This document shows positions 5,605-64,000 of a DNA stretch of 64,000 bases, piece by piece. Where the stretch lies: NCBI GenBank assembly GCA_031002005.1, contig CM061914.1, positions 190,606,685-190,670,684 of the forward strand. Direction: 5' to 3'. The stretch's first letter is position 1. Every line of letters starts with the position of its first letter. Position numbers and translations under genes: made by a program. The DNA comes from Vandiemenella viatica (lineage: Eukaryota; Arthropoda; Insecta; Orthoptera; Morabidae). The notes under the pieces are model-generated. The model made no database searches and was not told the origin of the DNA. It worked only from the letters and a program-made list of their open reading frames with translations.

Positions 5605-6250
5605 ACGGCCGACACTTTCCGATTATGCCTCGTGTATGACACATGTTGATACCCTGAAGTATCTGGGGGTGATAATACAAACTAACATGAAATGGGACAT
5701 GCACATAACTTCCGTCGTAGGCAAGGCGAATTCTAAATTACGATTCATAGGTCGTATTTTGAGGAATTGCAATGCTCATACAAAGGAGATTGCGTATAAA
5801 ACACTAGTACGTCCGCATCTGGATTACTGTTGGGGGTTTGGGATCCATATCGCAAGGTTCTGATTGACTCAGTTGAGAGGGTGCAGAGGAGAGCCGCTAG
5901 ATTCGTGACTTGTTGTTACAGTCCTTATGAAAGCGTCACAGAATTGATACATAGATTGGGCTGGGATAGTTTGGAAGACAGACGACGTAGCTTGCGTTCG
6001 AATTTATTGGAGAATATGCGAAAAAATTTAAATTTCGAGTGCAATGAAATACTTCTTCCGCCAACCTATTTAGGTCGCAATGACAGGAGGGATAAGATTC
6101 GAGAAATAAGATGCCGTACTGATACATTATTTATTCCTTCCTTCCTCGTTCTGTTCGGGACTAAATTCGCAGAATTATGATTGGTGCTTAGCACCCTCTG
6201 CCACCCACAATGTTTGTGATTTGCAGAGTATGGATGTAGATGTAGATGTT
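5605..6250 (+). mobile_element. LINE 3' fragment (LINE-1fam), 5'-truncated
   Basis: Two overlapping frames encode the C-terminal region of a non-LTR reverse transcriptase. The first has VDTLKYLGVIIQTNMKWDMH and then YKTLVRPHLDYC. The second continues VWDPYRK, VQRRAARFVTCCYSPYESV and GWDSLEDRRRSL. One frameshift near 5830 separates them. The element ends in a short tandem tail of gtagat units (about 6231-6250) instead of poly-A, which is characteristic of CR1/L2/jockey-like groups with simple-repeat tails. The same 3' end (tttgtgatttgcagagt) recurs at 56.3 kb, where it seeds a satellite. Confidence 0.85.
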
Positions 6251-27595: not shown

Positions 27596-28800
27596 AGAGG
27601 ATCATCGTCTGAGCTAAAAATAAAAAATTGGAGACCTAGCATACATCCCTGTGGAAATGTAAACATTATTTTCTTTTGTGTTCTCTGTCACTTTATAAAC
27701 TCTCGACGTGCTTCAGTCAGAGGAAACTCGTCTGAACAAAAAGTAAAAACTTAGAGACCCAACACACATCCCTGTGGAACTTCAGACTTGATACAGTTTT
27801 GAGCTTTCTATCGCTTTTTAAACTGTCGTTATCTCGTTTACCTGTGTTCCGTTCCTCACTTTACCTTCTTCAAAAAGAGGGTCATCGTCTGAACAAAAAA
27901 AAATCAAAACTTAGAGATTGGTATAGACCCCTGTCGAAGTGTAAACTTGAAATGGTTTTGAGCTCCCTATCACTCTTTAAACTATCGCTGACTCGTATAT
28001 CTCTGTATTGTACCCCCCCGTACCGTAACTTCTTCAGGCACAAGGCCTGAACAAAAAGTAAAAACTTGGTGACCTAGTATTCATCCCTGTGGAAATGTAA
28101 ACTTAAAATGGACATGCGCTCTCTATTGCTGTTTGAACTGTCGCTGTTTCGTTTATCTGTATTTCGTACCCCAGTCAAACTTCTTCAACCACAGTGTCCT
28201 GCAAAAGATAAATACTTGGAGACCTGGTATTGATCCCTGTGGAAATATAAACTTGAAATGGTTTTTAGCTCCCTATCGCTCTTTAAAATATCGTTGCCTC
28301 GTTTATCTGTGTATCATACCCCACTCTAAATTCACAGGCACAGGGTCTGAACGAAAAGTGAAAACGTGGAGACATAGTATACATCCCTGGGGAAATATAA
28401 ACTTGAAATGGTTTTTAGCTCTCTATCGCTCTTTAAACTATCGTTTCCTCATTTTTCTATGGTTTTTACCCCCCTCTAACTTCTTCAAACACAGGGTCGT
28501 GACAAAAAGCAAAAACTTGGAGATTTAGTATTCATTCCTGTGGAAATGTAAACTTGAAATGGCTTTCAGCTCTCTATCGCTCTTTAAACTATCGTTTCCT
28601 CGTTTATCTGTGCTTCGTACCCCACTCCAACTTCTTCAAGCACAGGGTCCTGACAAAAAGTAAAAACTTGGAGACCTAGTATACATCCCTGAGGAAATGG
28701 AAACTTTATCTGGGTCTGCGCTCTCTATCGCTCTTTAAACTGTGGCTGTCTCGTTTATCCCTGTATCGTCCTCCACTCCACCTGCTTCGGACAAAAGGTC
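27596..28800 (+). repeat. tandem array, about 150-bp unit, 8 copies
   Basis: The marker catccctgtggaaatgtaaac recurs at about 27646, 27768, 27930 (diverged), 28083, 28230, 28382, 28536 and 28685, so spacing runs 122-162 bp. Each unit also has a gacaaaaagtaaaaacttgg block and a ctctatcgctctttaaact block. Units are well diverged, so the array is old. Chance frames through it (28133-28528) are not genes. Confidence 0.85.
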
Positions 28801-29841: not shown

Positions 29842-29851
29842 GGTATGTATG

Positions 29852-29885
<34 letters not shown>

Positions 29886-29941
29886 TGTATGTATGTATGT
29901 ATGTATGTGTATATGTATATGTGTGTGTGTAATTGTATGTA

Positions 29942-30025
<84 letters not shown>

Positions 30026-30078
30026 TATGTACGTATGTATGTATGTATGTATGTATGTATGTATGTATGTATGTATCT
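29842..30078. repeat. compound microsatellite (GTAT)n-(GT)n-(GTAT)n
   Basis: GTAT repeats span about 29842-29915, a nearly pure GT tract about 29947-30022, then GTAT again to about 30078. Open frames on both strands through it (60-103 codons of Tyr/Val/Cys or His/Thr) are artefacts. Confidence 0.97.
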
Positions 30079-30139
30079 ATGCATGTATGCTACAAAATAT
30101 AGTTCCCTTCCTTGTTATGAAATGACTTTTCACTCATTT

Positions 30140-47369: not shown

Positions 47370-48460
47370 TTTACATTAGTGGATTTGAGGATAGTAACCC
47401 CTCATCTTTGCTTTCTCTCCAAAGCATATTTCCATTACAGCCATTTGTCTTTGCTGTTGTGTACACTATCTTAATTTTTAAATCTACTATATTTTTCTGG
47501 TTCAGTAGGAAAAAAAATACAAAAATATTGGCAACATTGACTGAAGTTATCTTTTACGAACAGGGACTTCCCGAAAAGGATACGTTGCGTAGGTTGCGTC
47601 AGAAGGAGTCCCCGTTCCCCGTTGTTTGGATTGATACTTGCTATTTGAACCAGTGCTGCCAGCCCTACAAATTTATCTGCAGACCTACGGATCTTTTCAA
47701 AAAAATTAGGAATTTTAAATTTATCTACGGTTTTTTTACTCTTCTTATTACTTATTTTGCTTTCCTTATATTCATATACTTGTTAAACTCGCAGCGTATA
47801 GTGATACTGAGTCATTAAATTGTCAGTAATCATGAATCATTTCGTTGCAACCGCTTGCGTAAACCAACGATTGAAAAGAAATAAAGCTTCTATTTTGTAT
47901 GATAATAGATTTAAATTCAATCTTAAAAGACCTTAATACAGAACTATCGGCGCAGTCTTTATGCACAATGTATACTTTTTTCACAATTTAAAATCGCAAT
48001 CTCAAAAGCTTTAGCGTTCAATACAACCAGTAAATGAAAATGTAACTATTTCTGAAGTTAAGGATCTGGAGGAGACAGAATAAGAAACAGAAAATTCCGA
48101 CACCGACTGAACTAGTGTTGGTAGTACTGATACTAGTGAATGTGGTACTGACATAGAGGATGAATAAAAATTATGTTCCTATATAGATATATTTATGAAT
48201 CATTATGTAAGACATTATATGATTTAATAAGATTTAAAACACACATGTAAAATGTAAGTTCCGTAAATAAAATTATAATTTATAAAATATATTGTTTTCT
48301 GATAAAAAAAAAAAAAAAATTTAGAAAAAAAAACAAGGGTGCTAGGTTTTTTTTCACAAATCTGAAAAGAACAGTGAAACCATAAACTACTCACTTACAT
48401 GACGTATTCCTCATCTACAATGTACCAACAAATAGACTATCCTAATCTAAAATAAGAACA
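47370..48460. other. no recognisable gene (intron)
   Basis: AT-rich intron of the protease homologue. A 165-codon frame (47321-47818) starts inside the hammerhead-like repeat and runs through AT-rich sequence. It has no domain, and I do not accept it. A/T runs at 48305-48335. Confidence 0.45.
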
Positions 48461-48464
48461 GCAC

Positions 48465-49055
48465 TTTATGGTGGCAACGCATGGACTTTAGGAATACCAG
48501 AAAGAAAGAAAATTGAAGCATTTGAAATTTGGTGCCACAGAAGAATGCTGAAAATTAAGTGGACTGATAAGGTACGAAATGAACGAGTTCTGGAAATGAT
48601 GGGTGAGATTTTTTTTTTAACTGTTTTACGTCTCTTAACAGCGAGATCTTTATAGACGGGAAAGGATGGGGGGAAGGAATTCGGCCATGGCCTTTTTGAA
48701 GGAAGCATCCCGGCATATGCCTGGAGTGATTTGGGAAACTATGGAAAACCCAAGTCTGGATGCTCGGATGGGGTGATGGGCGAGGAAAGAAGTTTGTGGA
48801 AGAAGTTTACGGGAAGAAGAGACAGGCTGGTAGGTCATATTTTGAGACATGCTGGATTGGTTAATTTGTTGGTGGAGGGAACAGTCGAAGATAAGAACTG
48901 TAGAGAAAGACAGAGATTAAATTATATGAAGCAGAGAATTGAGGACGTGGCTTGTATGGGATATGTAGAGATGAAGAGGTTAGCATAAGATAGGAAGGGA
49001 TGGAGGATTGCATCAAACCTGTAGAAAGAGTGATTACAACAACAACAAAAAAATC
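48465..49055 (+). mobile_element. LINE-3fam 3' end, split by a SINE
   Basis: Reads from tatggtggcaacgcatggac through VRNERVLEMMGE, is interrupted at 48608-48773, then resumes GEERSLWKKFTGRRDRLVGH and HAGLVNLLVEGTVEDKNC. It ends in ggaggattgcatcaaacc and tgattacaacaac. It lies in the intron of the minus-strand protease homologue. Confidence 0.87.
48608..48773 (-). mobile_element. SINE-A, 5'-truncated, nested in LINE-3fam
   Basis: T-run, the antisense tail (ctgttttacgtctcttaacagcgag) and body up to ggatgctcgg. The flanking duplication is tgatgggtgag on the left and tgatgggcgag on the right. The LINE frame is restored if it is removed. Confidence 0.9.
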
Positions 49056-49079
49056 TACAATAAAGCTATATCAAGACTT

Positions 49080-49450
49080 TAAACTGATGAAAGACTGTGT
49101 ATCTATACTAATATCATAAATGGGAAAGTAATTTTGTGTTTTTTTCTGTCTATTACGTTTTGACGATTAAATTGCTAAGCCGATTATGATGCAATTTGAC
49201 AAGTATATTCTGTGTATCATTACAAAGTACATAGGATATTTTTTCTGGATAAATAAATTGTAACGATATTTTAAAAACTAACTTGAGGATGACAGACAGA
49301 TGGATAGCGTGTGTGAGTCTCTGTAATGTTATATCGGTCACTCAGGCTTTGTTTCTCTCGCAGTCAGTTTGTGTATGATCTGTTTATAAATTTCGTGTAC
49401 AGCCGCACTTTAGGTAGATTTGCCTTGGACCTGCCCACTCCTGTCCGCAA
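49080..49450 (-). repeat. dispersed repeat R (antisense)
   Basis: tatactaatatcataaatggg, ttttgacgattaaattgctaagccg, gatgacagacagatggatagcgtg and tcactcaggctttgtttctctcgc correspond to the inverse of 32148-32590. The layout resembles the 3' tail of a widespread insect retroelement. Confidence 0.6.
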
Positions 49451-49673
49451 TCGATTCAGGAATTTCCAGATATTACAGTATTCTCTATGAACAAGTGCCA
49501 AGCGCTCCCAAGATATTGGGGACCTAAATTTTCTGCAACTTTGCTTTTGCCGTTACATGTGACCCAATTAGTTCCCGTGATGTTCGCAGGAAGCTTTTTG
49601 TGGATTCGAATCTCTGGACCGGTGGTGTATGGCCGTGCGGTGGGTGAACGCTTTCCCGTTCTACTTTGGTCGT

Positions 49674-49929
49674 TTTTTTTATTTATTTTTTTATTTTTAA
49701 CTGCTTTACGTCTCTTTTTAACACCGAGGTCTTTAGAGACGGGAAAGGATGGGGAGCAAGGAGTGGGAAGGAATTCGGCCATGGCCTTTTGAAGGAAGCA
49801 TTCCGGCATTTGCCTGGAGTGATTTGGGGAAACCATGGAAAACCCAAATCTGGATGCCCGGACGGGGATTCGAACCGCCGTCCTCCCGAATGCGAGGCGA
49901 GAACGCTAACCGTTACACGCCCCGCTCGG
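49674..49929 (-). mobile_element. SINE-A, full length, perfect 12-bp target duplication
   Basis: T-run, body, box B and head end at gccccgctcgg. Flanks are tactttggtcgt at 49662-49673 and 49930-49941. It lies in the protease homologue's intron. Confidence 0.95.
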
Positions 49930-49989
49930 TACTTTGGTCGTCTCATTGTTCGCAGTCACTTCTCTTCGGATACTGGGTGGCGTAATCCC

Positions 49990-50620
49990 TGACAGCTGAT
50001 AAGGCATGTCGAATGGGAAAGCCCGGTAGCGCGGGTTTATCGAACTGTCTTTATCTTGCAGGGGTCTTCGGTTCGAGTCCGGTGCAGGGGATGGGTTTTA
50101 ATAAAGTGGTGAGTCCGTCCTGTTTTGTCCTTTCACTCGTCAAAATAAGTAATACTAGAAGAGCCTAATACAAATGAGGAAAAATGAAAAAAGAAACACA
50201 GATGCTCGCTTAATGGCTATTAAAAAAAAATTTGCTAGGCTTTAGGTAACTTGTCACCAACATACAGGTGTTACTGAGGGCTACAACCACTTGTTTCGTG
50301 TGAGATAATGAGAGCCAAATAGAACGGTTTTTAAGCGGTTTTCCGCAGCCATCAAGACGAATGCTGGGGTGGTCTCCAATCTTCACCTTATAAGTTACAC
50401 ATTACACCAACTAAAAACATTACACCTGTCACACGCCGAACATAGTTATACATTTCGCAGACACATGTAAACACTTGTGCCGTTAGTACTTACAAGGAAC
50501 ACCTTTCACCTCGAACTCTCGGAACGGCACGAAAACATGTTTAGAATAACAAGCGATCATAAACAAAACAGTGGTGTGTGTCATTTCCATGCAGAACGTT
50601 GCATTCTACCTCAAGTAACA
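49990..50620. other. no gene; weak repeat signatures (intron)
   Basis: A box B-like ggttcgagtccgg lies at about 50070. The block ttttccgcagccatcaagacgaatgctgggg at about 50338 looks like a known type of dispersed insect repeat that I cannot name. The rest is AT-rich. Confidence 0.35.
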
Positions 50621-50621
50621 T

Positions 50622-51414
50622 TTTAATAGAGAGAAACAAAGTAACAAGATATCAATACCATATGAAAGAAATTATATAATTTGATGACGTCAGTGTACCA
50701 TTACATTCTCAATCAACTTTGTGTGATTTACTATCAATTTGCTACACCTACGTATAAGCCTATGTTGTAATATGCTTGCCGAAAGCCAGGTTACGACATT
50801 AACATACCAAAATAATCATTTGAAAATGTAATTAGCGTTACTCTTGATATTGGACTGCATGAATGCGAAAATGATTTGGGAATGTGATAACGTGGCTTTA
50901 CTGAGGTGTGCACATTCTTCTCTTCCACTTTGTTTTAACCAATTCATCGAAATCCCGCATCTGTACTTTGAGGACTAATATAAGCACTATCAGGTGTGTG
51001 GTTCTGCTGTATATGGGCATTTTGCGCTATTTTTGTTTTTAACTGCATAACGTCTCTTAACAGCGAGGACTTTAATAGAGACAGGATAGGATGGGGTGCA
51101 AGGAATGGGAAGGAATTCGGCCATGGCCTCTTGAAGGAAGCATCGCGGCATTTGCCTGGAGTGATTTGGGGAAACCATGGAAAACCCAAATCTGGATGCC
51201 CGGACGGGGATTCGAACCGGCGACCTCCCGAATGCGAGCCGAGAACGCTAACCGTTACACCACCACTCTCGGTTTTTGCGCTATGTTAAGTAGTTTAAAC
51301 AGAGAGTTTTTTCCACTGTTGATTGAAAATGTGAAGATGTACTGACGTCATTGAATTATGTATAATTTCCTTCATATCGTATTAACATCTTGTTACTTTG
51401 TTTCTCTCTATTAA
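50622..51414. mobile_element. foldback/MITE with about 110-bp inverted arms
   Basis: tttaatagagagaaacaaagtaacaagat at 50622 returns inverted, ending at 51414. The arms continue with matching gaaattata and tgacgtcagt blocks to about 50735 and back to about 51300. The middle holds unique DNA and a nested SINE (51031-51273). No coding sequence. It lies in the intron. Confidence 0.72.
51031..51273 (-). mobile_element. SINE-A nested in the foldback element
   Basis: Antisense full-length SINE-A with perfect flanking ttttgcgctat at 51020-51030 and 51274-51284 (11 bp). Confidence 0.93.
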
Positions 51415-51668
51415 ACTGAGCGTGGTGGTGTAACGGTTAGCGTTCTGGCCTCGCATTCGGGAGGACGGTGGTTCGAATCCCCGTCCGGGCATCCAGATTT
51501 GGGTTTTCCATGGTTTCCCAAATCACTCCAGGCAAATTCCGGGATGCTTCATTCAAAAGTCCATGGCCGATTTCCTTCCCATTCCTTGCCCCCCCCCCCA
51601 CCCATCCTTTCCCGTCTCTAAATACCTTGCTGTTAAGAGACGTTAAGCAGTTAAAACAAAACAAAAAT
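51414..51668 (+). mobile_element. SINE-A, full length
   Basis: ctgagcgtggtggtgtaacgg head, complete box A and box B, full body with a C-run, end gttaagcagttaaaacaaaac. It starts exactly at the right end of the foldback element. Confidence 0.93.
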
Positions 51669-51714
51669 ACATATTTCAAATGAAGCGCTATGTCGATTTT
51701 GAATTTTAATTATA

Positions 51715-52374
51715 CAAGGGGTGATCAAATGAAAAGGTACGAAACGACACGGTGGGTGCAAAAGTAGAGTTTATTCAAAATATAGACCATAGGCCTGAGC
51801 ACAACGATCCCACTGATGAACAAGCCGCAGGATTCCTTGTTCCCAGAATTCCTGTGGCCGTGACGAGACCCAGTCCTTCACAGCGTCCTAGAGTTCGTCG
51901 TCCGAGTTGAAGCGCTTCCCTTTCAGGTGTTTCTTCAGTGGACCAAACACATGGAAATCGCAGGGCGACGTGTCCGGACTGTAGGGCGGATGGTCCAACG
52001 TCTCCCACATGAACTTGGCCAGTTCCATGTGTGTGACTCTGGAGACGTGTGGACGCGCGTTATCGTGGAGCAGAACCACACCCTCCGTGAGCAGCCCCGG
52101 TCTTTTGTTCTCGATGGACCTGCGTAGGCGTCGGAGTGTCTCACAGTACACATCCCACACCTGTACGCCATCCTGTCCTCATACGGACTGCCGCATCATT
52201 TGGACGCCGCTTTTGATGATAGCCTCTGCTCTCTACTGCGCATGCTCCGATCCCAGTCAGAGACTCCAATAGCATCCCGAGATGTCTTACTACGTTCTCC
52301 CATGGCGGAATATGCAAATATTTAACTGTTACGTTTTAACGTCGTTTCGTACCTTTTCATTTGATCACCCCTTG
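51715..52374 (-). mobile_element. mariner, internally deleted, 660 bp
   Basis: The ends are caaggggtgatcaaatgaaaa... and its exact inverse, identical over about 34 bp, with TA on both sides (51713-51714 and 52375-52376). Minus-strand coding starts MGERSKTSRDAIGVSD near 52303, then jumps to VWDVYCETLRRLRR. VVLLHDNARPHVS (second Asp) and YSPDTSPCDFH (third Asp, 34 residues on; DD34D) follow. After one in-frame stop (DDEL-stop-DAVKDW) it reaches the normal C-terminal end at about 51775. The DNA-binding domain and first Asp are deleted. Inserted in the protease homologue's long intron. Confidence 0.93.
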
Positions 52375-52606
52375 TAATTTAATGTTACATTTTATTAGTG
52401 TGAAACAGTGCTATATAACTGAATTATTGATTATGTGCTATGGCGATAAGATAAATAAATAAATTAACATCTAGTAATAAAGATATGGTTTTCTTTTATA
52501 AAAAATCATAAAAAATATATATATATATTTTTTTTTTTACGAACAAACGGTTCTTACTTTGAGGTCGAATCTCCAATTTTTACTTTCGATAAAAATAAAT
52601 AATTAC

Positions 52607-52858
52607 CTCCATCGACAGACTATATGCGAAGAAATCCTTGATGGCGATGACTGCTACGTCGTAGTCGAGGTGAGTGGGGTGAGTCCAGATCTCCTCCCCC
52701 GCGTAGGCGGTGCCGTCTGCCAGCTGTTTGATGGACCCGGCTCGCACGGTTATGGCCGTCGCTGTTTTGTTCTTCACGCAGTGTGCCGCCGTCACAGCGT
52801 ACTTTGAGAGCAGGATGAACCCCGAGCAGAGGAAGGCTTTCCCCTCCTCCACCGACAC
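52607..52858 (-). CDS. serine protease homologue, internal exon with His and Asp of the triad
   Basis: 84 codons, phase 0 at both ends. The 3' splice site is tttcgcag directly above 52858. The 5' splice site is atggag|gtaatt, with the GT at 52606-52605. It begins VSVEEGKAFLCSGFILLSKY, then AVTAAHC (catalytic His57 in the standard TAAHC motif and the Cys42-Cys58 pair). It ends with HPTHLDYDVAVIAIKDF (catalytic Asp102 in DVAV). Its last residues, AYSLSME, join in frame with PAFLSKDLP of 46305-46688, as in trypsins. The activation-site exon (IVGG type) should lie further upstream. I did not find it between the array and 64000, so it may be outside the window. Confidence 0.9.
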
Positions 52859-52865
52859 CTGCGAA

Positions 52866-55800
52866 ACGTTTAGGCTCAACATTGTTTAACAATAAAAGTG
52901 TTAAATGAAAGCTTCACGGGTGTCCATTTACATAATAAAAGTGTTGTCTACATCTACATCCACACTCTGCAAATCACAGTTTTGGTTCAACTTTGTTTAA
53001 CAATAAAAGTGTTCAATGAAAGCTTCACGGGTGTCCATTTACATAATAAAAGTGTTGTCTACATCCACATCCACACTCTGCAAATCACAGTTTGTGTTCA
53101 ACGAAAGCTTCACGGGTGTCCATGTACATAATAAAAGTGTTGTCTACATCTACATCCACACTCTGCAAATCACAGTTTTGGTTCAACTTTGTTTAACAAT
53201 AAAAGTGTTCAATGAAAGCTTCACGGGTGTCCATTTACATAATAAAAGTGTTGTCTACATCTACATCCACACTCTGCAAATCACAGTTTTGGTTCAACTT
53301 TGTTTAACAATAAAAGTGTTCAATGAAAACTTCACGGGTGTCCATTTACATAATAAAAGTGTTGTCTACATCTACATCCACACTCTGCAAATCACAGTTT
53401 TGGTTCAACTTTGTTTAACAATAAAAGTCTTCAATGAAAACTTCACGGGTGTCCATTTACATAATAAAAGTGTTGTCTACATCCACATCCACACTCTGCA
53501 AATCACAGTTTTGGTTCAACTTTGTTTAACAATAAAAGTGTTCAATGAAAGCTTCACGGGTGTCCATTTACATAATAAAAGTGTTGTCTACATCCACATC
53601 CACACTCTGCAAATCACAGTTTGTGTTCAACGAAAGCTTCACGGGTGTCCATGTACATAATAAAAGTGTTGTCTACATCTACATCCACACTCTGCAAATC
53701 ACAGTTTTGGTTCAACTTTGTTTAACAATAAAAGTGTTCAATGAAAACTTCACGGGTGTCCATTTACATAATAAAAGTGTTGTCTACATCCACATCCACA
53801 CTCTGCAAATCACAGTTTGTGTTCAACGAAAGCTTCACGGGTGTCCATTTACATAATAAAAGTGTTGTCTACATCCACATCCACACTCTGCAAATCACAG
53901 TTTGTGTTCAACGAAAGCTTCACGGGTGTCCATGTACATAATAAAAGTGTTGTCTACATCTACATCCACACTCTGCAAATCACAGTTTTGGTTCAACTTT
54001 GTTTAACAATAAAAGTGTTCAATGAAAACTTCACGGGTGTCCATTTACATAATAAAAGTGTTGTCTACATCTACATCCACACTCTGCAAATCACAGTTTT
54101 GGTTCAACTTTGTTTAACAATAAAAGTGTTCAATGAAAACTTCACGGGTGTCCATTTACATAATAAAAGTGTTGTCTACATCCACATCCACACTCTGCAA
54201 ATCACAGTTTTGGTTCAACTTTGTTTAACAATAAAAGTGTTCAATGAAAGCTTCACGGGTGTCCATTTACATAATAAAAGTGTTGTCTACATCTACATCC
54301 ACACTCTGCAAATCACAGTTTTGGTTCAACTTTGTTTAACAATAAAAGTGTTCAATGAAAACTTCACGGGTGTCCATTTACATAATAAAAGTGTTGTCTA
54401 CATCTACATCCACACTCTGCAAATCACAGTTTTGGTTCAACTTTGTTTAACAATAAAAGTGTTCAATGAAAGCTTCACGGGTGTCCATTTACATAATAAA
54501 AGTGTTGTCTACATCTACATCCACACTCTGCAAATCACAGTTTTGGTTCAACTTTGTTTAACAATAAAAGTGTTCAATGAAAACTTCACGGGTGTCCATT
54601 TACATAATAAAAGTGTTGTCTACATCTACATCCACACTCTGCAAATCACAGTTTTGGTTCAACTTTGTTTAACAATAAAAGTGTTCAATGAAAGCTTCAC
54701 GGGTGTCCATTTACATATTAAAAGTGTTGATTACATCCACATCCACACTCTGCAAATCACAGTTTGTGTTCAACGAAAGCTTCACGGGTGTCCATGTACA
54801 TAATAAAAGTGTTGTCTACATCTACATCCACACTCTGCAAATCACAGTTTTGGTTCAACTTTGTTTAACAATAAAAGTGTTCAATGAAAGCTTCACGGGT
54901 GTCCATTTACATAATAAAATTGTCTACATCTACATCCACACTCTGCAAATCACAGTTTTGGTTCAACTTTGTTTAACAATAAAAGTGTTCAATGAAAACT
55001 TCACGGGTGTCCATTTACATAATAAAAGTGTTGTCTACATCTACATCCACACTCTGCAAATCACAGTTTTGGTTCAACTTTGTTTAACAATAAAAGTGTT
55101 CAATGAAAACTTCACGGGTGTCCATTTACATAATAAAAGTGTTGTCTACATCCACATCCACACTCTGCAAATCACAGTTTTGGTTCAACTTTGTTTAACA
55201 ATAAAAGTGTTCAATGAAAGCTTCACGGGTGTCCATTTACATAATAAAAGTGTTGTCTACATCCACATCCACACTCTGCAAATCACAGTTTGTGTTCAAC
55301 GAAAGCTTCACGGGTGTCCATGTACATAATAAAAGTGTTGTCTACATCTACATCCACACTCTGCAAATCACAGTTTTGGTTCAACTTTGTTTAACAATAA
55401 AAGTGTTCAATGAAAACTTCACGGGTGTCCATTTACATAATAAAAGTGTTGTCTACATCCACATCCACACTCTGCAAATCACAGTTTGTGTTCAACGAAA
55501 GCTTCACGGGTGTCCATGTACATAATAAAAGTGTTGTCTACATCTACATCCACACTCTGCAAATCACAGTTTTGGTTCAACTTTGTTTAACAATAAAAGT
55601 GTTCAATGAAAGCTTCACGGGTGTCCATTTACATAATAAAAGTGTTGTCTACATCTACATCCACACTCTGCAAATCACAGTTTTGGTTCAACTTTGTTTA
55701 ACAATAAAAGTGTTCAATGAAAGCTTCACGGGTGTCCATTTACATAATAAAAGTGTTGCCTACATCCACATCCACACTCTGCAAATCACAGTTTCGGTTC

Positions 55801-56311
55801 AACTTTGTTTAACAATAAAAGTGTTCAATGAAAGCTTCACGGGTGTCCATTTACATAATAAAAGTGTTGCCTACATCCACATCCACACTCTGCAAATCAC
55901 AGTTTTGGTTCAACTTTGTTTAACAATAAAAGTGTTCAATGAAAGCTTCACGGGTGTCCATTTACATAATAAAAGTGTTGTCTACATCCACATCCACACT
56001 CTGCAAATCACAGTTTGTGTTCAACGAAAGCTTCACGGGTGTCCATGTACATAATAAAAGTGTTGTCTACATCTACATCCACACTCTGCAAATCACAGTT
56101 TTGGTTCAACTTTGTTTAACAATAAAAGTTTTCAATGAAAGCTTCACGGGTGTCCATTTACATAATAAAAGTGTTGTCTACATCTACATCCACACTCTGC
56201 AAATCACAGTTTCGGTTCAACTTTGTTTAACAATAAAAGTGTTCAACGAAAGCTTCACGGGTGTCCATGTACATAATAAAAGTGTTGTCTACATCTACAC
56301 CCACACTCTGC
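52866..56311. repeat. tandem array, about 33 units of 111 or 85 bp, seeded at a LINE 3' end
   Basis: The marker gcttcacggg recurs at 52911, 53022 (+111), 53107 (+85) and so on. Long units are 111 bp. About eight units lack the same 26-bp segment (tggttcaactttgtttaaca plus ataaaa) and are 85 bp. Each unit contains tctacatctacatcc...ctctgcaaatcac, identical to the inverse 3' tail of LINE-1fam. The rest (caataaaagtgtt...aaagcttcacgggtgtcc) matches the intron just above the exon at 52607-52858. The array ends by running into the LINE body at 56311. As 111 is a multiple of 3, chance frames of up to 328 codons cross it. Confidence 0.95.
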
Positions 56312-58222
56312 AAATCACAAACATTGTGGGTGGCAGAGGGTGCTAAGCACCAATCCTAAACCCGCCCATTCCAATCCCGAATAGTGCGAGGAAAGAAGGA
56401 ATACATATAATTATCAGTACGGCATCTTATTCCTCTAATCTTATCCCTCCGGTCACTGCGACCCAAATAGGTTGGCGGAAGAAGTACTTCATTGCACTCG
56501 TAATTTAAAGATTTTCGCATATTCTCCAATAAATTCAGACGCAAACTACGCCGTCTGTCTTCCAAACTATCCCAGCCCAATCTATGTATCAATTCTGTGA
56601 CGCTTTCATAAGGGCTGTAGCAACCAGTCACGAATCGAGCGGCTCTCCTCTGCACCTTCTCCACTGAGTCGATCAGGCCCTTGCGATACGGATCCCAAAC
56701 TGCACAACAGTAATCGAGATGCGGACGCACTAGTGTTTTTGAATGAATGGCAACAGCAGTGGAACAATTCGGAAACAGGAAGGAGAGTATTTGAAATTCT
56801 TCCTGACATCAGAGAGAGGATGCGTATGAAGCACTTCAATCCATCCCGAGGGTTGATACATTTCCTCACCGGTCATGGACAGTATGAAACATTTCCCCAT
56901 AGGATCAATTGGGCATAGAATGATCTATGCACTTGAGGATCTCCAGGAACATCTGAACATAAACTGTTTGAATGTGCTTTAGCTGATGATGAAATCAAAC
57001 GGTACAGAGTGAAAAGCTCATGGGGAAAAGTATCACGGAAATTCTAAAAGACAACCTCCTCTTAAATGAACTTGTTAAGCTTGCAGATGCTGTGTCAGAT
57101 GCAGCAAGTGAGCGGTATCGGCTTCAGCATAGCCAGCAACCTGCCAGAACACAGCAGGCCATTTAAGGAATGAGACAAGACGAGACGAGATACAAACAAC
57201 TAAGTGGAACGCTGATACCGGAAGTGTGGCTTCTGGAATTTACCGAAGCTTATTCTTCAACGGATGCCAGCGTTAACCGAACTTTTGAAAACTCAAGATG
57301 TTTAGTTATATAGTATTAGTGGGTAAAAGTCTTTACTAACAGGTTGATAATTTATAATGTGTAGTAATAATAGTTAATTATTTGCACCATTTTCGTTGTA
57401 TATAGGATTAGTGTTTATTTTACAAAATTATGTTAAGAATAAATTTTATTACAGTATTAAGGAATAACGGTCCGTTGTAGATCCTAGAGAACGAACCATC
57501 TGAATGTACAGACAAATAAATAAAACTAGTGTTTTATACGCTATCTCATTTGTACGAACAATACAGTTGCTCAAAATACAACCTATGCATCGGAATTTAG
57601 AATTATCCTTGCCTACGACAGAAGTTATGTGCAAGTCCCATTTCATGTTGCTTTGTACTATCACCCCCAGGTACTTCAGGGAATCAACCGTGTCAACAGC
57701 TGAATTGTTTATTTTGTACTCGTGAGCAATCTGATTCTTTTTTTTTTTTTTTTTTACTTATTCGCATTGCCTTGCACTTTTTTCAATTAAGTGTAAGCTT
57801 CCATTTGCGGCACCATTCGGAAATAGCATCCAAATCGCGCTGAATTTGTAAGCAATCGTCGGAGCACCTTATTTCCTCCATCATCGGCAAACAATCGCAA
57901 CCAGCATCTGGCGTGTTCAGCGAGATCATTTATAAATATTAAGAAAAGAAGTGGTCCTGATATACTTCCTTGAGGAAACCCCGCAATAACATCTATCTTC
58001 GAAGAGGCTTCCCCGTCAACAACGACATACTGAGATCGACCAGTTAGAAAATCACGTATCCATTCGCAAATCTGATCCGGTATACCATATGCTCGAATCT
58101 TCGCTAAAAGACGGTTGTGTGGTACAGAATCAAAAGCTTTCTGAAAATACAAGAAAATTGCATCAACTTGTGAACCTGAATCGATAACTTTCATTACGTC
58201 ATGTGAAAATAGGGCCAACTAA
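56311..58222 (-). mobile_element. LINE-1fam, largest copy, split by a nested LINE
   Basis: Minus strand, from 58218: VDAIFLYFQKAFDSVPHNRL, where the usual Asp is Tyr. FPQGSISGPLLFLIFINDLA and LRLFADD follow, then a frameshift. Near 57.66 kb it reads YLGVIVQSNMKWDLHITSVV, and at 57.54 kb EIAYKTLV. After the nested element it resumes RPHLDYCCAVWDPYRKGLID, VQRRAARFVTGCYSPYESVT, GWDSLEDRRRSL and LLPPTYLGRSDRRDKIRG. The 3' end (ttgcagagtgtgggtgtagatg antisense) touches the satellite array. Reverse transcriptase of the CR1/jockey-like type; inactive. Confidence 0.9.
56740..57524 (+). mobile_element. 5'-truncated LINE (LINE-7fam) nested in LINE-1fam
   Basis: 785 bp bounded by a perfect 11-bp duplication, actagtgtttt, at 56729-56739 and 57525-57535. 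The first frame reads EWQQQWNNSETGRRVFEILP and later RGLIHFLTGHGQYETF. This is the end of an RNase H-type domain and the following GHG region of I/R1/LOA-like LINEs. After a frameshift KLFECALADDEIKRY gives the knuckle end. The tail is aaataaataaa. The host LINE reads YKTLV on one side and RPHLDYC on the other, so the insertion point is exact. Confidence 0.92.
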
Positions 58223-58224
58223 TA

Positions 58225-58540
58225 TTAATTTGGTAATAGGCCACAGTCCCGCAGTTGTTGAACTGTAGTGCCCCCTCCTGGACACAGGTGAACCTGTGGG
58301 GACCTGTGACGAACCTGGCAACAGGTCGAGCGGAGAGTTCGATGACAGGACTGAGCGAATGGGTAAGGATCGACCATAGAAGTCGATCTGGGATCGGAGT
58401 GAGATATTCGTGGTAGGATCATCAGGGTGAATGATTTCGCAAATACGTCATATGTACACTATTTACTATCACGGCACGGTACTGTACAAAATATACAAGT
58501 GGTATACATCAGGATTACTGCTGAAGACGGATCACAATGG
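58225..58540. other. no recognisable gene
   Basis: GC-balanced unique DNA containing several gacctgtg/gaacctgtgggg-like blocks. No domain in the 65-codon frame. Confidence 0.35.
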
Positions 58541-58599
58541 AAGGTGATTATTTTTTTGAATAAAAATCCTTCTTCTAACAACTGTTCTTACTATTAACT

Positions 58600-58655
58600 T
58601 TCATCTACCAGACGCGTTTCGCCGTTCTGAAGTGGGGCATCGTCAGTGGTAAAAA
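58600..58655 (-). ncRNA. hammerhead-ribozyme-like motif (best stem I)
   Basis: Minus strand: tacca, CTGACGA (58646-58640), stem II region tgcccc...cggc, GAAAC (58620-58616), acgcgt, GTC (58613-58611), then tggta. Stem I is a perfect 5-bp pair (tacca with tggta) directly flanking the core and the cleavage triplet. Stem III acgcgt is self-complementary, so it would work best as a dimer. One extra T separates the core from stem II. Confidence 0.6.
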
Positions 58656-58689
58656 TTTTGGCGGACTCACATGTGCTAGCCGCCAAATT

Positions 58690-58740
58690 TTTACCACTGA
58701 CGATGCCCCACTCCAGAAGGGCGAAACGGGTCCGGTAGAT
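58690..58740 (+). ncRNA. hammerhead-ribozyme-like motif, palindrome partner
   Basis: Plus strand: tacca, CTGACGA (58697-58703), stem II gccc/gggc, GAAAC (58723-58727), acgggt, GTC (58730-58732), then cggta. Stem III has lost its palindrome (acgggt), and stem I has a mismatch at its first pair. Confidence 0.5.
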
Positions 58741-58967
58741 GAAAGTTAATCATAAAAACAGTTGTTAGAAGACGTATTTTTATTCAAAAATATTCATGCA
58801 ACAAGTGCGGAACATGGCCTACAACAAGGATACTGTAATGTAAGGTGATGTTGCGCTATGTTCCTTCATCCTGACATAGTTGAATATTGAAAATAGATTG
58901 AATATATTACGACCGCATGTGTATGACATTTACTTTGAGAACGGCAAGTGCGTCTGCGACTGCAGGT

Positions 58968-59213
58968 TTTTTTTATTTATGGCTTTACACCTTGTCGACG
59001 TCGAGGTTATTAGAGGCGGGACGGGACTAGGAGCCAAGGAACGGGAAGGAATTCGGCCATGGCATTTTTGAAGGAAGCATCCCGGTATTCGCCTGGAGTG
59101 ATTTTTGGGAAACCATGGAAGACCCGAACCTGGATGCCCGGACGGGGATTCGAACCCGCGTCCTAACGAATGCGAAGCCAGAACGTTAACCGTTCACCCA
59201 CCACGCTCGGTGA
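58968..59213 (-). mobile_element. SINE-B, full length, 10-bp target duplication
   Basis: T-run, tail antisense (ggctttacaccttgtcgacgtcgag), body, box B (ggattcgaacccg) and head end at ccaccacgctcgg. Flanks are gactgcaggt and gactgcgggt. Confidence 0.92.
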
Positions 59214-59214
59214 G

Positions 59215-59738
59215 ACTGCGGGTGATTATCCAGCCAGATATCCCCAGCTGTAGGCAATGTGGGAGACCCTAGCTTCTTATCTATAACACAACGATGGCTC
59301 TGCACGTCCAGCCTACCATACAGTAGAGCCAACCTGTTAGGAGCTACCCCTCCTCTTCGTGTGTGGCCCCACGGCCCCTGGAGGGCGGCACGACATCTGC
59401 GTTTCCTCTGCTCCGACTGTCGCTTGCCCGGACTCAGTGATGAAGATAAGATACTACCAGACAAGACAAGACACCCTTTGATTCCCGTGCAGACGTTTTT
59501 AACCCAACCTGCCACTACGGTCCTAAAGACGAATGATGAGGTCTATCAATGCGGTCATCTGCCCTACTTCACCCGGCCATTACGCACGTTTTGCTAACTG
59601 TCAGCGCTCCAAATCCCCAGTCGATGCCTCTGTCAAGTTTCTTAACATCCAGCTTCCCGTCCTCATTTCATACTTAAGAAATACGTAGCTCTTAGCCAAC
59701 AGAACAACTCGGTTCACTACAGTTTAACAATAATTTTA
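59215..59738. other. unique sequence, no gene recognised
   Basis: GC-balanced stretch with overlapping 109- and 112-codon frames on opposite strands. Neither has a recognisable domain. Confidence 0.35.
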
Positions 59739-59739
59739 T

Positions 59740-59915
59740 AAACAACTCCGTCTGCAAACGACTGTTTGGTGAATTTTACTTTATTCCCGAGACGCGTTTC
59801 GCCTTTGTGGTGTAGAGAATCATCAGTGGAGATATAGTGGTAATCCTCACATGCCGGTCTCGAACCGCACCTCACACACTTTCCAGCACTGCTCATTGGA
59901 ATTCCAGTTGAACAC
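59740..59915 (-). mobile_element. single Penelope-like terminal repeat with hammerhead motif
   Basis: The segment from ccgtctgcaaacgactgtttggtgaatttt through the hammerhead core to cacatgccgg and cctcacacactttccagcac matches the repeat arms at 33585-34022. Confidence 0.5.
59782..59836 (-). ncRNA. hammerhead-ribozyme-like motif
   Basis: Minus strand: ctcca, CTGATGA (59826-59820), GAAAC (59800-59796), acgcgt, GTC (59793-59791), then tcggg. Core, stem III and triplet are ideal. Stem I has a mismatch, and stem II (ttc...ggc) is weak. Confidence 0.5.
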
Positions 59916-59919
59916 TATT

Positions 59920-60845
59920 TAACCACTTTTTTGCATGCCCCACTCATTGCTATAGCGAAATATGTGTAAATCAACGCATATTTGGCCTAAGAACTCGAAT
60001 ATTCATTCTAGCATGTCAAAGCAGAGATACAAATTAAAGCCATCTTCACTTTGTCTTACAACGAATTTTATAATTACATTACAGAAAAAAAGCAAAACAA
60101 TGATAAAAGCAATACAATCTAACAGTACATATAATTTTAAAAAATAATTACGTTATACTTACTAACAGAATAAATAAATACTTAAAAGTCAATTTAAAAA
60201 TTCATTATTTCCAAAATATTTTGTTACCAGTAGTATTCAACAGGTCTAACTGTTATTACAATATTTAGTAAAATGATTTGTAAGCTCCTATCATATGATA
60301 GACAGATGCCTAGTGAAATAAATAGACATTACTTCTGTCCTCCATAAATTATAAAAATGAACGTGAATTATATAAAATTCTATTTTTCTGGAACTGTCCT
60401 GATTTGTAACTCCAAATCCCGATTATTATTATTATTACGGTCCTTCCCGACTTTTAACAACCTGGGCCTGGCAAAACTAGTCACGGACCTCTCCAGAATA
60501 CAACAATGGAGGAAAGTCCATGAATACAACCAAGCTGAACAAAACACACACGGTATATCCATATCTGTGAGATAAGTGGTGTTGACATCTGGCGGTAACG
60601 CGATCAATCGTTATTCATGCCAGATAGCCTAGCGGCTTGGCTATGAACTGTCTCAAAACCCGCGCCTTGATAGCTAATACTTTTGCCTTTTAAGATCGAA
60701 TTTCGAAAAGTTCGTTTCATGACATATAAAGTTTTGAAAGCGGAGAGCTTATTCTTTAAAATGATACCTCATTTATCGGTTTCGGTTGTGTATGAAGTGA
60801 GATCACTGGCTTATGACCCAAAAAAAAATCTTTCAGAATTAATAT
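59920..60845. other. no recognisable gene
   Basis: AT-rich, with a short (ATT)n at 60421-60437. No coding or RNA signature. Confidence 0.4.
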
Positions 60846-60989
60846 GTATATGATACATGGAACTAAGTTAAAATCACTTGGTGACTTGACGAAATTACCT
60901 GTAAATCTTTATAAAGCAGTTTAGAAGCATTACGTTCGTAGCGACTTAACAATGGCTTCGATTGAACATCAACAAAACTCACTTGAACG

Positions 60990-61165
60990 CCTAACTGAAG
61001 GAAGAAGGTTCGAAATTTAAGCTGCGAATACCACCATAATTCGTGAATGAAAGATCTGCCATAGGTCAGATTAGGAACACTCAAAAATTGTGACCCGTTC
61101 CGGGGTACGAACCGTAGTCCTACGGTAGACAGTGAGGCGATCTTACACCAGTGAACCGTCACTGT
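60990..61165 (-). mobile_element. tRNA-derived element (SINE-D), putative
   Basis: The minus strand from about 61165 reads gacggttcactggtgtaagatcg (box A-like), then ctacggttcgtaccccgg (box B). This has tRNA-like spacing and is followed by cacaatttttgag and unrelated body. No other copy lies in this window, so family status is inferred. It is just left of the mariner insertion. Confidence 0.45.
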
Positions 61166-61188
61166 TTAAGCAGTTAAGCCGGAACCTA

Positions 61189-62499
61189 CGAGGGTGAGTC
61201 AAATGAAAAAAACTTAAATATTTTTTAAATATTATTTACTGTGCAGAAGTGGTACAAAGCTGTATCACTTTTCAACATAATCTCCCCCACGCTCAATGCA
61301 AGTCCTCCAGCGCTTACAAAGTGCATAAATTCCTTTAGAAAAAAAATCTTTTGGTAGTCCGCGCAACCACTCATGCACCGCGTGGCGTACCTCTTCATCA
61401 GAACGGAACTTCTTTCCTCCCATTGCTTCTTTGAGTAGTCCAAACATATGGAAATCACTTGGGGCAAGGTCTGGTGAGTATGGTTGATGAGGAAGACACT
61501 CAAAATGCAGGTCTATGATTGTTGCAACTGTCGTACGGGCAGTGTGGGGCCTTGCATTATCATGTTGCAAAAGGACACCTGATGACAGCAATCCACGTCA
61601 CTTTGATTTGATTGCAGGCCAAAGATGATTTTTTAGGAGATCTGTGTATGATGCACTGGTGACAGTGGTCCATCTAGGCATGTAATGCTCCAAAATGACG
61701 CCTTTTTCGTCCCAAAAGAGAGTTAGAATAACCTTCCCTGCTGATGGTTCTGTTCGAAACTTCTTTGGTTTTGGTGATGAGTAATGGCGCCATTCCTTGC
61801 TCGCTCTCTTCGTTTCCGGTTGGCGGAAGTGAACCCAGGTTTCGTCTCCAGTAACGATTCTTGCAAGGAAGCCATCACCTTCTCGTTCAAAGCGCCGAAG
61901 AAGTTCTTCACAAGCATCATCACGTCGTTTTCTCATTTCAGGAGTCAGCTGCCGTGGCACCCATCTTGCAGACACTTTGTGAAACTGGAGCACATCATGC
62001 ACAATGTGGTGTGCTGAACCATGACTAATCTTTAAACATGCTGCAATGCTATTCAGTGTCACTCGGCGGTTTTCCATCACTATGGCTTCAACTGCTGCAA
62101 TGTTCTGTTGAGTCACAACTCGTTGTGCCTGACCTGGACGAGGAGCATCTTCCACTGAAGTCACACCATTTGCGAACTTCCCACTCCATTCGTAGACTTG
62201 CTGCTGTGACAAACATGCATCACCGTACTGAACCTTCATTCTTCGATGAATTTATATAAGTTTCTCACCTTCACTACTCAAAAACCGAATAACAGAACGC
62301 TGTTCTTCCCTGGTGCAAGTCTCAAGTGGGGCAGCCATCTTTATACTGATACTGCGACGGTATTTGTGCACCTGCACTATGCTGCCACCTACAGGCCATT
62401 CTGCACGCTGCTTGTAGCACGCTTACCAACTTACAGGATAACGGCGCGAAATTTCGATTTTTTATATCAAATTTAAGGTTTTCATTTGACTCACCCTCG
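61189..62499 (-). mobile_element. mariner element, full length (1311 bp)
   Basis: Termini cgagggtgagtcaaatgaaaa and the exact inverse, with TA at 61187-61188 and 62500-62501. The length, TA target and single DD34D transposase are standard for mariner. The terminal repeats remain identical over at least 21 bp, and only two stops interrupt the gene, so this is the youngest DNA transposon in the window. Confidence 0.96.
61265..62338 (-). pseudogene. mariner transposase with two in-frame stops
   Basis: One continuous frame of 358 codons from ATG at 62338 to a stop at 61265. N-terminal part: EEQRSVIRFLSSEGEKLI, then a stop (codon 27), then RRMKVQYGDACLSQQQVYEW (helix-turn-helix). The APRPGQ linker and a second HTH (TLNSIAACLKISHGSAHHIV) follow. 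Catalytic residues are intact: TGDETWVH (Asp1), LLQHDNARPH (Asp2), PDLAPSDFHMF (Asp3 after 34 residues). It ends at GGDYVEK. The second stop, AIKSK-TGA-RGLL, is probably a decayed CGA Arg codon. Otherwise no frameshift. Normal mariner transposases are about 345 residues. Confidence 0.92.
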
Positions 62500-62504
62500 T
62501 AATT

Positions 62505-63335
62505 TCTTAAGAACCGCGTTCGTCCGAGTAACGCCCTATTTGACGGCCGACCAGTTAGCCCGATTAACCTCGTCCACTGCAGGCAAATAACGTCCTACAC
62601 ACATTGCCGATCCGTCAGTGTTGCTTCAACACCAAGCTAACGGAGTGTTTTTTTTATAAAATGTATAGTGACTTACATTTCGTAAAAACAGACTTTACCT
62701 TGCTCTCGCGAAATATTACGGTAGTCAGGGCTGTATTTAGGATGTGTAGACCCTGTGATGCGCGCCCTGCCCCGCAAATATTTTGAAATTCAACCTCGCA
62801 TTTTACAGTTACTTTCTAGCAAAAATTCTAAATTAAACATCTGAAAATTATTATTTAACTGTAGAATATTTTAATATATCGTATCTGGAAGAATATACAA
62901 TTGCTGACATAAAATGGAAACAATTGAAAATCATTAAAGTATTTCACACGATTCATTAACATGGCTATGAACAATTATAGAAGAAAAAGATTGCGAAGTT
63001 TAGAGTCACGTGCATTTTGCCAATTTCGCAAAAGTCAATATTTCAATTTTAAAAATCAAATAAACATACAAGAAAAAAGCAAGATACAAAAAGAAGAATT
63101 ATATGAAACAAGCAAATTTTGTTTTTGTGATGCAGGTTAGTAGGCGGCAGCCTAGATGGCCTATGCCAAATGCTGTCCCGTCTGAGATTATTCCAGTGCG
63201 AAATTCAAATAATTGTCATTACTGTACAAATTTTTAATAAAGTACTTAATATTACTGTGTAGAGGCACTTAAAATAATTGCGCTTTCTGTAAAGGCAAAA
63301 AAACCAACAAAAAAAACACGTTTTTACGTGTCCTA
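62505..63335. other. no recognisable gene
   Basis: Flank of the mariner target, then AT-rich sequence. The 60-codon frame at 62604 is unassigned. Confidence 0.4.
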
Positions 63336-63339
63336 CACA

Positions 63340-64000
63340 CCTCTAAAATTTTTCAAACATTCTTTGTATAAATCCACAATGTTTGTCCGATTTCGATGGG
63401 GTTTTTCACATGCATGATATAAATCAAAGAGAAAAATACTACTTACATGAGGTTTAAAATTCAACCCCTCTTCCCCTTTACCTCCCCCCCCCTTAATTTT
63501 TGCCAATGTTCATTACAGACAGACAGTTTTGTCAGAATTTGACGGAACTTTGCATTAGTACACATTAGAACAAATAGAAAAATACTGTTTAAGTTTGATT
63601 TACAAAAATTGAATCTCTTCTCCGTTCCTCCCCTGTCCTTAATTTAGATAATATTGTTCATACAAACCCATAGTTAATATCCGGTATCACATTTAATAAA
63701 GGAAATTTTATAAAACAAATGTTTTATAAAATATGTCCCGTTAAATTGTAAAATATTTTATAAAATACTAGCTCGTACCCGCGACTTCGTACGCGTGGAT
63801 TAAGAATTTTTTTGGCAGAATTAAATATAGAAAGTTGTTGGTGACGAAGGATTGGTCCCAAACAATATCGAGTCGGAATAATATGAGAGGAAAGCTAACA
63901 CTATATCATTGTACCGTCGAACCTGTCTCTTGAAGAGAATCAATTTCCAACATATTTCTGTCACCTTTCGATAAGGTCTCAAAATTTCGTGACTACAAGT
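63340..64000 (+). repeat. dispersed repeats, including repeat R at the window edge
   Basis: The stretch at 63340-63700 resembles the repeat at 22.6-22.9 kb (attttgccaatg, agaaaaatactg, aaccccttccc-type blocks). From 63770 it is repeat R: ctcgtacccgcgacttcgtacgcgtgg, then gtcccaaacaatatcgagtcg and cttgaagagaatcaatttcc, matching 26119-26300. It runs off the window. Confidence 0.6.

Follow-up and report, generated by a model that had tools for sequence, protein, structure and literature searches.

The results indicate that an intronic minisatellite in a protease gene of Vandiemenella viatica was born through tandem duplication across a host-transposon junction, a reading to which we give a probability of roughly 0.87. 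The array lies in a stretch of 64,000 nucleotides (the window), and each of its full-length units combines host intron sequence, a remnant of an older transposon and the 3' end of a LINE that is still attached. The first-pass annotation had proposed a LINE insertion, a tandem duplication spanning the junction and a later expansion, and this course of events was supported: the unit was found only at two loci, both attached to the LINE, and stages of 9 and about 4 units coexist in the same genome.

To characterize the array, we combined repeat detection with unit alignment. The results showed that 33 head-to-tail units fill positions 52868-56319 (TRF score well over the TRF threshold), in agreement with the earlier estimate of about 33. 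The units comprise 24 of 111 bp, eight of 85 bp and one of 108 bp, and they differ pairwise by 2.6% on average with the 26-bp deletion gapped. Unit 1 starts at 52868, 9 intron bases away from the exon, while unit 33 (56209-56319) adjoins the LINE, whose body runs on without a gap from 56320; this last unit carries derived variants in common with the last unit of a paralogous array. The 85-bp units represent a 26-bp-deletion variant confined to the window array as against the paralogous one, and the unit directly before each of them has the CCACATCC variant (8/8). The order of unit types in u2-u9 was repeated at u18-u25, a run of 8 that arose in 2 of 5,000 shuffles, and this recurrence points to growth of the window array in part through block duplication. 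Elsewhere in the window, we observed a tandem array with a period of about 151 bp (27736-28788; 6.9 copies, 75% matches), a (GTAT)n microsatellite of 62 copies (29843-30089), and a 642-bp segment (51028-51669) that is 78% identical to its own reverse complement and contains copies of a short repeat family abundant in the window.

We then resolved the make-up of the unit. Positions 80-111 of the 111-bp unit form a 32-bp stretch of LINE 3' end (TCTACATCTACATCCACACTCTGCAAATCACA as read on the plus strand; 52947-52978 in unit 1, minus strand), and the other 79 bp continue without a break from the splice acceptor. The first-pass annotation had described a chimera of about 30 bp of LINE tail and a remainder equal to the intron next to the exon; the tail was recovered as 32 bp that recur at other copies, whereas the remainder had to be revised, as 31 of its 79 bp are the remnant of a second transposon. 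The host part of unit 1 covers 35 bp (52868-52902) and includes the first copy of a 12-bp direct repeat. Unit positions 1-35 had no other full match in the 3.72-Gb genome in a search that skips very common words. One dispersed copy elsewhere (L032) matched 37 bp of the unit with one mismatch, reaching about 11 bases into the left 12-bp repeat; these supposed host bases may not be purely host, or else chance or target preference may account for the match. The same 32-bp LINE end was present in a second copy of the family in the window (5637-6246, plus strand), which lacks an array and passes into different DNA. It was likewise followed by unrelated DNA at 10 of 11 other LINE 3'-end loci inspected (L033, L034 and L088-L096; L091 was missed by the search pattern, and L088-L096 were viewed with only about 84 bp of flank). 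At L088-L096, the genome-wide pattern search detected no further exact tail core at a distance of 73-133 bp. The exact LINE-tail 15-mer occurred 7,503 times genome-wide, compared with 5 for the reversed control. Transposon-derived minisatellites consist of near-identical units, arranged head to tail and at least tens of bp long, part of which is homologous to a dispersed transposon; here, 33 such units differ by 2.6%, and dispersed copies exist of the LINE tail as well as of the older element's end.

The LINE beside the array spans 56288-58218 on the minus strand, with its 3' tail at the array. It shows the remnant of a reverse transcriptase domain (RVT_1, PF00078, E 1.2e-13), 5' truncation and, across the family, short-repeat hexamer 3' tails, all of which are expected of a LINE; its second protein piece gave no Pfam match. 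The truncation point at 58218 was placed by comparison with other copies, two of which extend past it. From the look of its protein, the LINE may belong to the CR1 group. No target-site duplication of the LINE was seen. The element is broken by a nested retro-insert of about 790 bp, which is dispersed in the genome and occupies 56729-57535, a span that includes the two copies of its 11-bp target-site duplication (ACTAGTGTTTT). The donor LINE had previously been placed at 56311-58222, still attached at the far end; the attachment held with the borders given here, and the nested insert had gone unmentioned. To the right of the LINE, a near-palindrome of 244 bp (58550-58793) shares 89% identity with its own reverse complement.

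The second transposon is represented by a 31-bp remnant at unit positions 36-66 (52903-52933 in unit 1), which matches both ends of a short dispersed element, the two ends being fused at TCCA. In the unit, the 12-bp sequence AATAAAAGTGTT flanks the remnant on both sides (second copy at 52934-52945 in unit 1). This sequence occurred 54 times in the array and nowhere else in the window; the repeat-remnant-repeat arrangement was intact in 21 of 33 units, and the first repeat was absent from the 8 short units. Fused ends between two copies of AATAAAAGTGTT suggest that the unit contains an internally deleted element with an apparent target-site duplication, and the 12-bp direct repeat fits such an origin.

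To describe the source element, we searched for its 24-bp end, which gave 1,333 genome matches at up to 2 mismatches (both arrays' own copies included; control 0), often as inverted pairs among the matches listed. Twenty element loci were examined (L065-L084), 18 of them chosen for looking like inverted pairs, and both ends were located in 18 of the 20. Border repeats of at least 8 bp were found in 13 of these 18 two-ended copies, compared with 1 of 306 mismatched pairs, and 11 of the 13 repeats were 10-13 bp long; one of the 13 copies, L083, sits inside an ATT repeat and is uninformative. One end of the element begins CAATGAAAG and the opposite end finishes CATTTACAT. The element thus shows inverted arms, a one-sided extension of about 32 bp and border repeats mostly of 10-13 bp. 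Penelope-like elements are recognized by a short target-site duplication, inverted arms and a one-sided tail, and by this likeness the source element fits the Penelope-like group. A hammerhead ribozyme is frequent in Penelope-like elements. Rfam gave no match at gathering score in 10 element copies, and 3 copies yielded 17 matches at E ≤ 1, none of them a hammerhead; a hammerhead-like CTGATGA...CGAAAC core was present in 6 of the 20 loci. Rfam miRNA matches in the short element were rejected, being below the gathering score and reflecting its long hairpin.

The first-pass annotation had also called for a search for the unit elsewhere in the genome. We searched the 3.72-Gb genome with a 222-bp dimer query, very common words being skipped, and obtained 24 matches: 16 in the window array, 5 in a paralogous array and 3 pieces of 31-42 bp that were LINE tail or older element. 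In this search, the unit was found at two paralogous loci alone, both attached to the LINE. The refuting condition named in the first-pass annotation, a widespread satellite with arrays away from this LINE family, thus did not hold, and the finding differs from the many arrays per genome of a classical satellite. The paralogous array lies about 83 kb away on the opposite strand (C1:190746240-190747238) and consists of 9 units, each of 111 bp, in the same intron and at the same LINE; the outer borders of the two arrays are identical, falling on the same host base and the same LINE base. This second locus is an inverted copy of the gene region that matches window positions 47467-64000 with interruptions, and it contains the LINE and the nested insert, with the equivalent of 57517-58140 missing. 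Divergence between the loci reached 4.2% over a flank of 2.2 kb and 9.35% over one of 460 bp; the right flank differed by 4.9%, the exon by 3.2%, the downstream intron by 1.5%, the 3' part of the LINE by 4.7% and the nested insert by 5.8%. Along the flanks, divergence was patchy (0.5-10% per 200 bp).

Comparison of the two arrays, paralogues within one genome, provided the basis for reading their history. Unit 33 of the window and the last unit of the paralogue (p9) differed at 1 of 111 sites and have variants in common, including one at site 92 that is found in no other unit, so that the array already contained distinct units when the loci last shared sequence. Unit p8 was identical to u4, u14, u16 and u27, and unit differences were similar within the window array (2.6%), within the paralogue (2.8%) and between them (3.0%); together with the patchy flanks, this suggests that the array may have passed between the loci by conversion once the gene had been duplicated. 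In a timing variant of the junction-duplication reading, the array would have arisen in one copy after the gene duplication and reached the other by gene conversion. The identity of p8 to four window units speaks for this variant, as does the single difference between u33 and p9 beside an adjoining LINE and nested insert that differ by 4.7% and 5.8%; however, the exon and the downstream intron are also little diverged, so that low local divergence needs no transfer of the array, and we consider the variant possible but on the whole unlikely. It is very improbable that the second locus is an assembly artefact, either the other haplotype or a place where array lengths were mis-assembled: although both loci rest on a single assembly, the two copies lie on one contig in opposite orientation, about 83 kb from each other and with another protease exon between them, they differ by 4-9% across much of the flank, and only the window copy has 85-bp units.

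We next considered how the first duplication might have started. The first-pass annotation had suggested slippage in a (gtagat)n hexamer tail of the LINE. This was not borne out: the duplication breakpoints lie 32 bp from the LINE terminus in the window array and 71 bp from it in a second array described below, outside the hexamer tail, and hexamer slippage at the breakpoint was rejected. The fused breakpoint showed no microhomology. Just before the breakpoint, the exon end CTCCACCGACACCTGCGAAA can be aligned to the LINE tail in unit 33, CTACACCCACACTCTGCAAA, at the cost of 2 mismatches and 2 single gaps; of 2,000 random window 30-mers, 36 equal or better this alignment. Within this repeat, unit 33 has a private C where most units have T, a variant absent from the LINE tails inspected. 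A strand ending in the LINE copy and slipping back to the exon copy would yield the observed junction; slippage between exon end and LINE tail is suggestive only.

To look for other arrays at junctions of the same LINE family, we searched the genome for two exact LINE-tail cores 73-133 bp apart, a pattern that passes over diverged cores and other periods. It returned 43 places (control 0): the window array accounted for 32, the paralogue for 8 and C6:43032370-43032622 for 3. At the last locus (within L097, C6:43031800-43033500), TRF detected 3.9 units of 80 bp that were 100% alike. The unit joins 9 bp, which likewise make up the host flank (AATAATCGA), to 71 bp of LINE end; two extra hexamers are present in the outermost unit, and the LINE goes on to the right. 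This is an independent array at another LINE-host junction, with the same LINE family and the same architecture. Exact cores spaced 23-73 bp were found at 0 places genome-wide, and those spaced 134-194 bp at 6: the window array and the C6 array each accounted for 2, and the other 2 were double-tailed LINEs without host DNA (C1:192446368, within L098, C1:192445900-192447200; C7730:82901803, within L099, C7730:82901300-82902600). The double tails have two units of 169 and 175 bp, are made of LINE sequence only and have a common fusion point. We rejected these pairs as two-unit intermediates, as they are LINE-only duplications with a common fusion point; they are perhaps copies of one double-tailed LINE.

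The double-tailed copies bear on whether the repeats could be part of the LINE's own 3' end, having arrived with it as 3'-UTR repeats or through template jumping during reverse transcription. Two LINE copies with a duplicated 3' end do exist, but they contain LINE sequence only, whereas the 111-bp unit includes intron and the remnant of a second transposon and was found by the genome search at the two loci alone despite the 7,503 LINE-tail 15-mers; this origin has a very slight chance of being correct. Slighter still is the chance that a satellite already occupied the intron when the LINE inserted next to it or within it: the array reaches up to the exon and exceeds the LINE in length, but each unit contains the 32-bp 3' end of a LINE family that has thousands of tails, and the genome search found the unit nowhere without the LINE.

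The array also borders a splice site. The neighbouring exon (52607-52858, minus strand; VSVEEGKAFLCSGFILLSKYAVTAAHC...) encodes part of a trypsin-like serine protease (Pfam PF00089, E 3.5e-9), with its acceptor AG at 52860-52859 and a donor GT, read by eye, at 52606-52605. On the sense strand, an acceptor-like TGATTTGCAG occurs in 33 of 33 units, and upstream of the true exon the reading frame meets a stop after 30 nt. A third protease gene lies between the two loci (C1:190711901), its exon being 48% identical and its intron phase the same; six motif searches allowing 3 mismatches detected no unit, remnant or LINE-tail motif in 2.4 kb of its intron. Tentatively, LINE 3' junctions might act as recurrent satellite nurseries, with at least two independent starts by one family, coexisting stages of 1, 4, 9 and 33 units, and a ladder of TGATTTGCAG before the real acceptor that might affect protease splicing, an idea that we regard as doubtful.

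Under the preferred reading, tandem duplication across the host-transposon junction, the history would run as follows. A short inverted-repeat Penelope-like element would have entered the intron with a 12-bp target-site duplication, and an internal deletion would have left 31 bp of it. A 5'-truncated LINE would have ended up one base behind the second copy of the 12-bp repeat; either order of the Penelope-like insertion and the arrival of the LINE is possible. A segment of 111 bp, beginning 9 bp upstream of the exon and reaching 32 bp into the LINE, would then have duplicated in tandem, perhaps started by slippage at the imperfect 20-bp direct repeat shared by the exon end and the LINE tail. 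At least 2 distinct units would have been present when sequence was last shared between this locus and the inverted copy about 83 kb away, after which the window copy would have reached 33 units, with the 26-bp-deletion variant and a block duplication, and the other copy 9 units. The Penelope-like insertion, its deletion, the presence of distinct units, the later growth and the fact of a tandem duplication are read from the sequence, and slippage is an inferred mechanism.

Satellite origins are usually inferred from old, homogenised arrays without surviving donors. This one genome keeps the donor LINE, the host breakpoint, the older insertion, a smaller array at the paralogue and an independent array of 4 units, and the presence of all these pieces together makes the first duplication separable from later growth. 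With relatives or population data, both could be dated.

In published work, transposon-derived mini- and satellites are described, LINE 3' ends and CR1 included, and slippage at short direct repeats is one published starter of minisatellites (PMC9659126, PMC3389668, PMC6947457, PMC12628747). The array belongs to these known transposon-derived minisatellites, and what distinguishes it is an unusually readable history; in the portions of the open-licence literature consulted, we saw no unit that combines host DNA with two transposons and for which several stages coexist. In the source element of the remnant, the inverted arms, the one-sided stretch of about 32 bp and the border repeats mostly of 10-13 bp resemble the Penelope elements of Adineta vaga, which are described with inverted pLTRs, an optional 31-bp tail and target-site duplications of 8-10 bp (PMC3846280), although the source element is known here from short copies alone. 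The human Alu-derived minisatellites (PMC9659126, PMC3389668) likewise have tandem units from a transposable element; unlike them, the unit here spans host DNA, an older remnant and a LINE tail, and the LINE that donated this tail remains in place beside the array. The CR1-related HinfI satellite of chicken and the L1 3'-end-related cetacean common satellite, both named in PMC9659126, are alike in that a LINE region contributes to the monomer, but they occupy many loci, compared with one array and its paralogue here.
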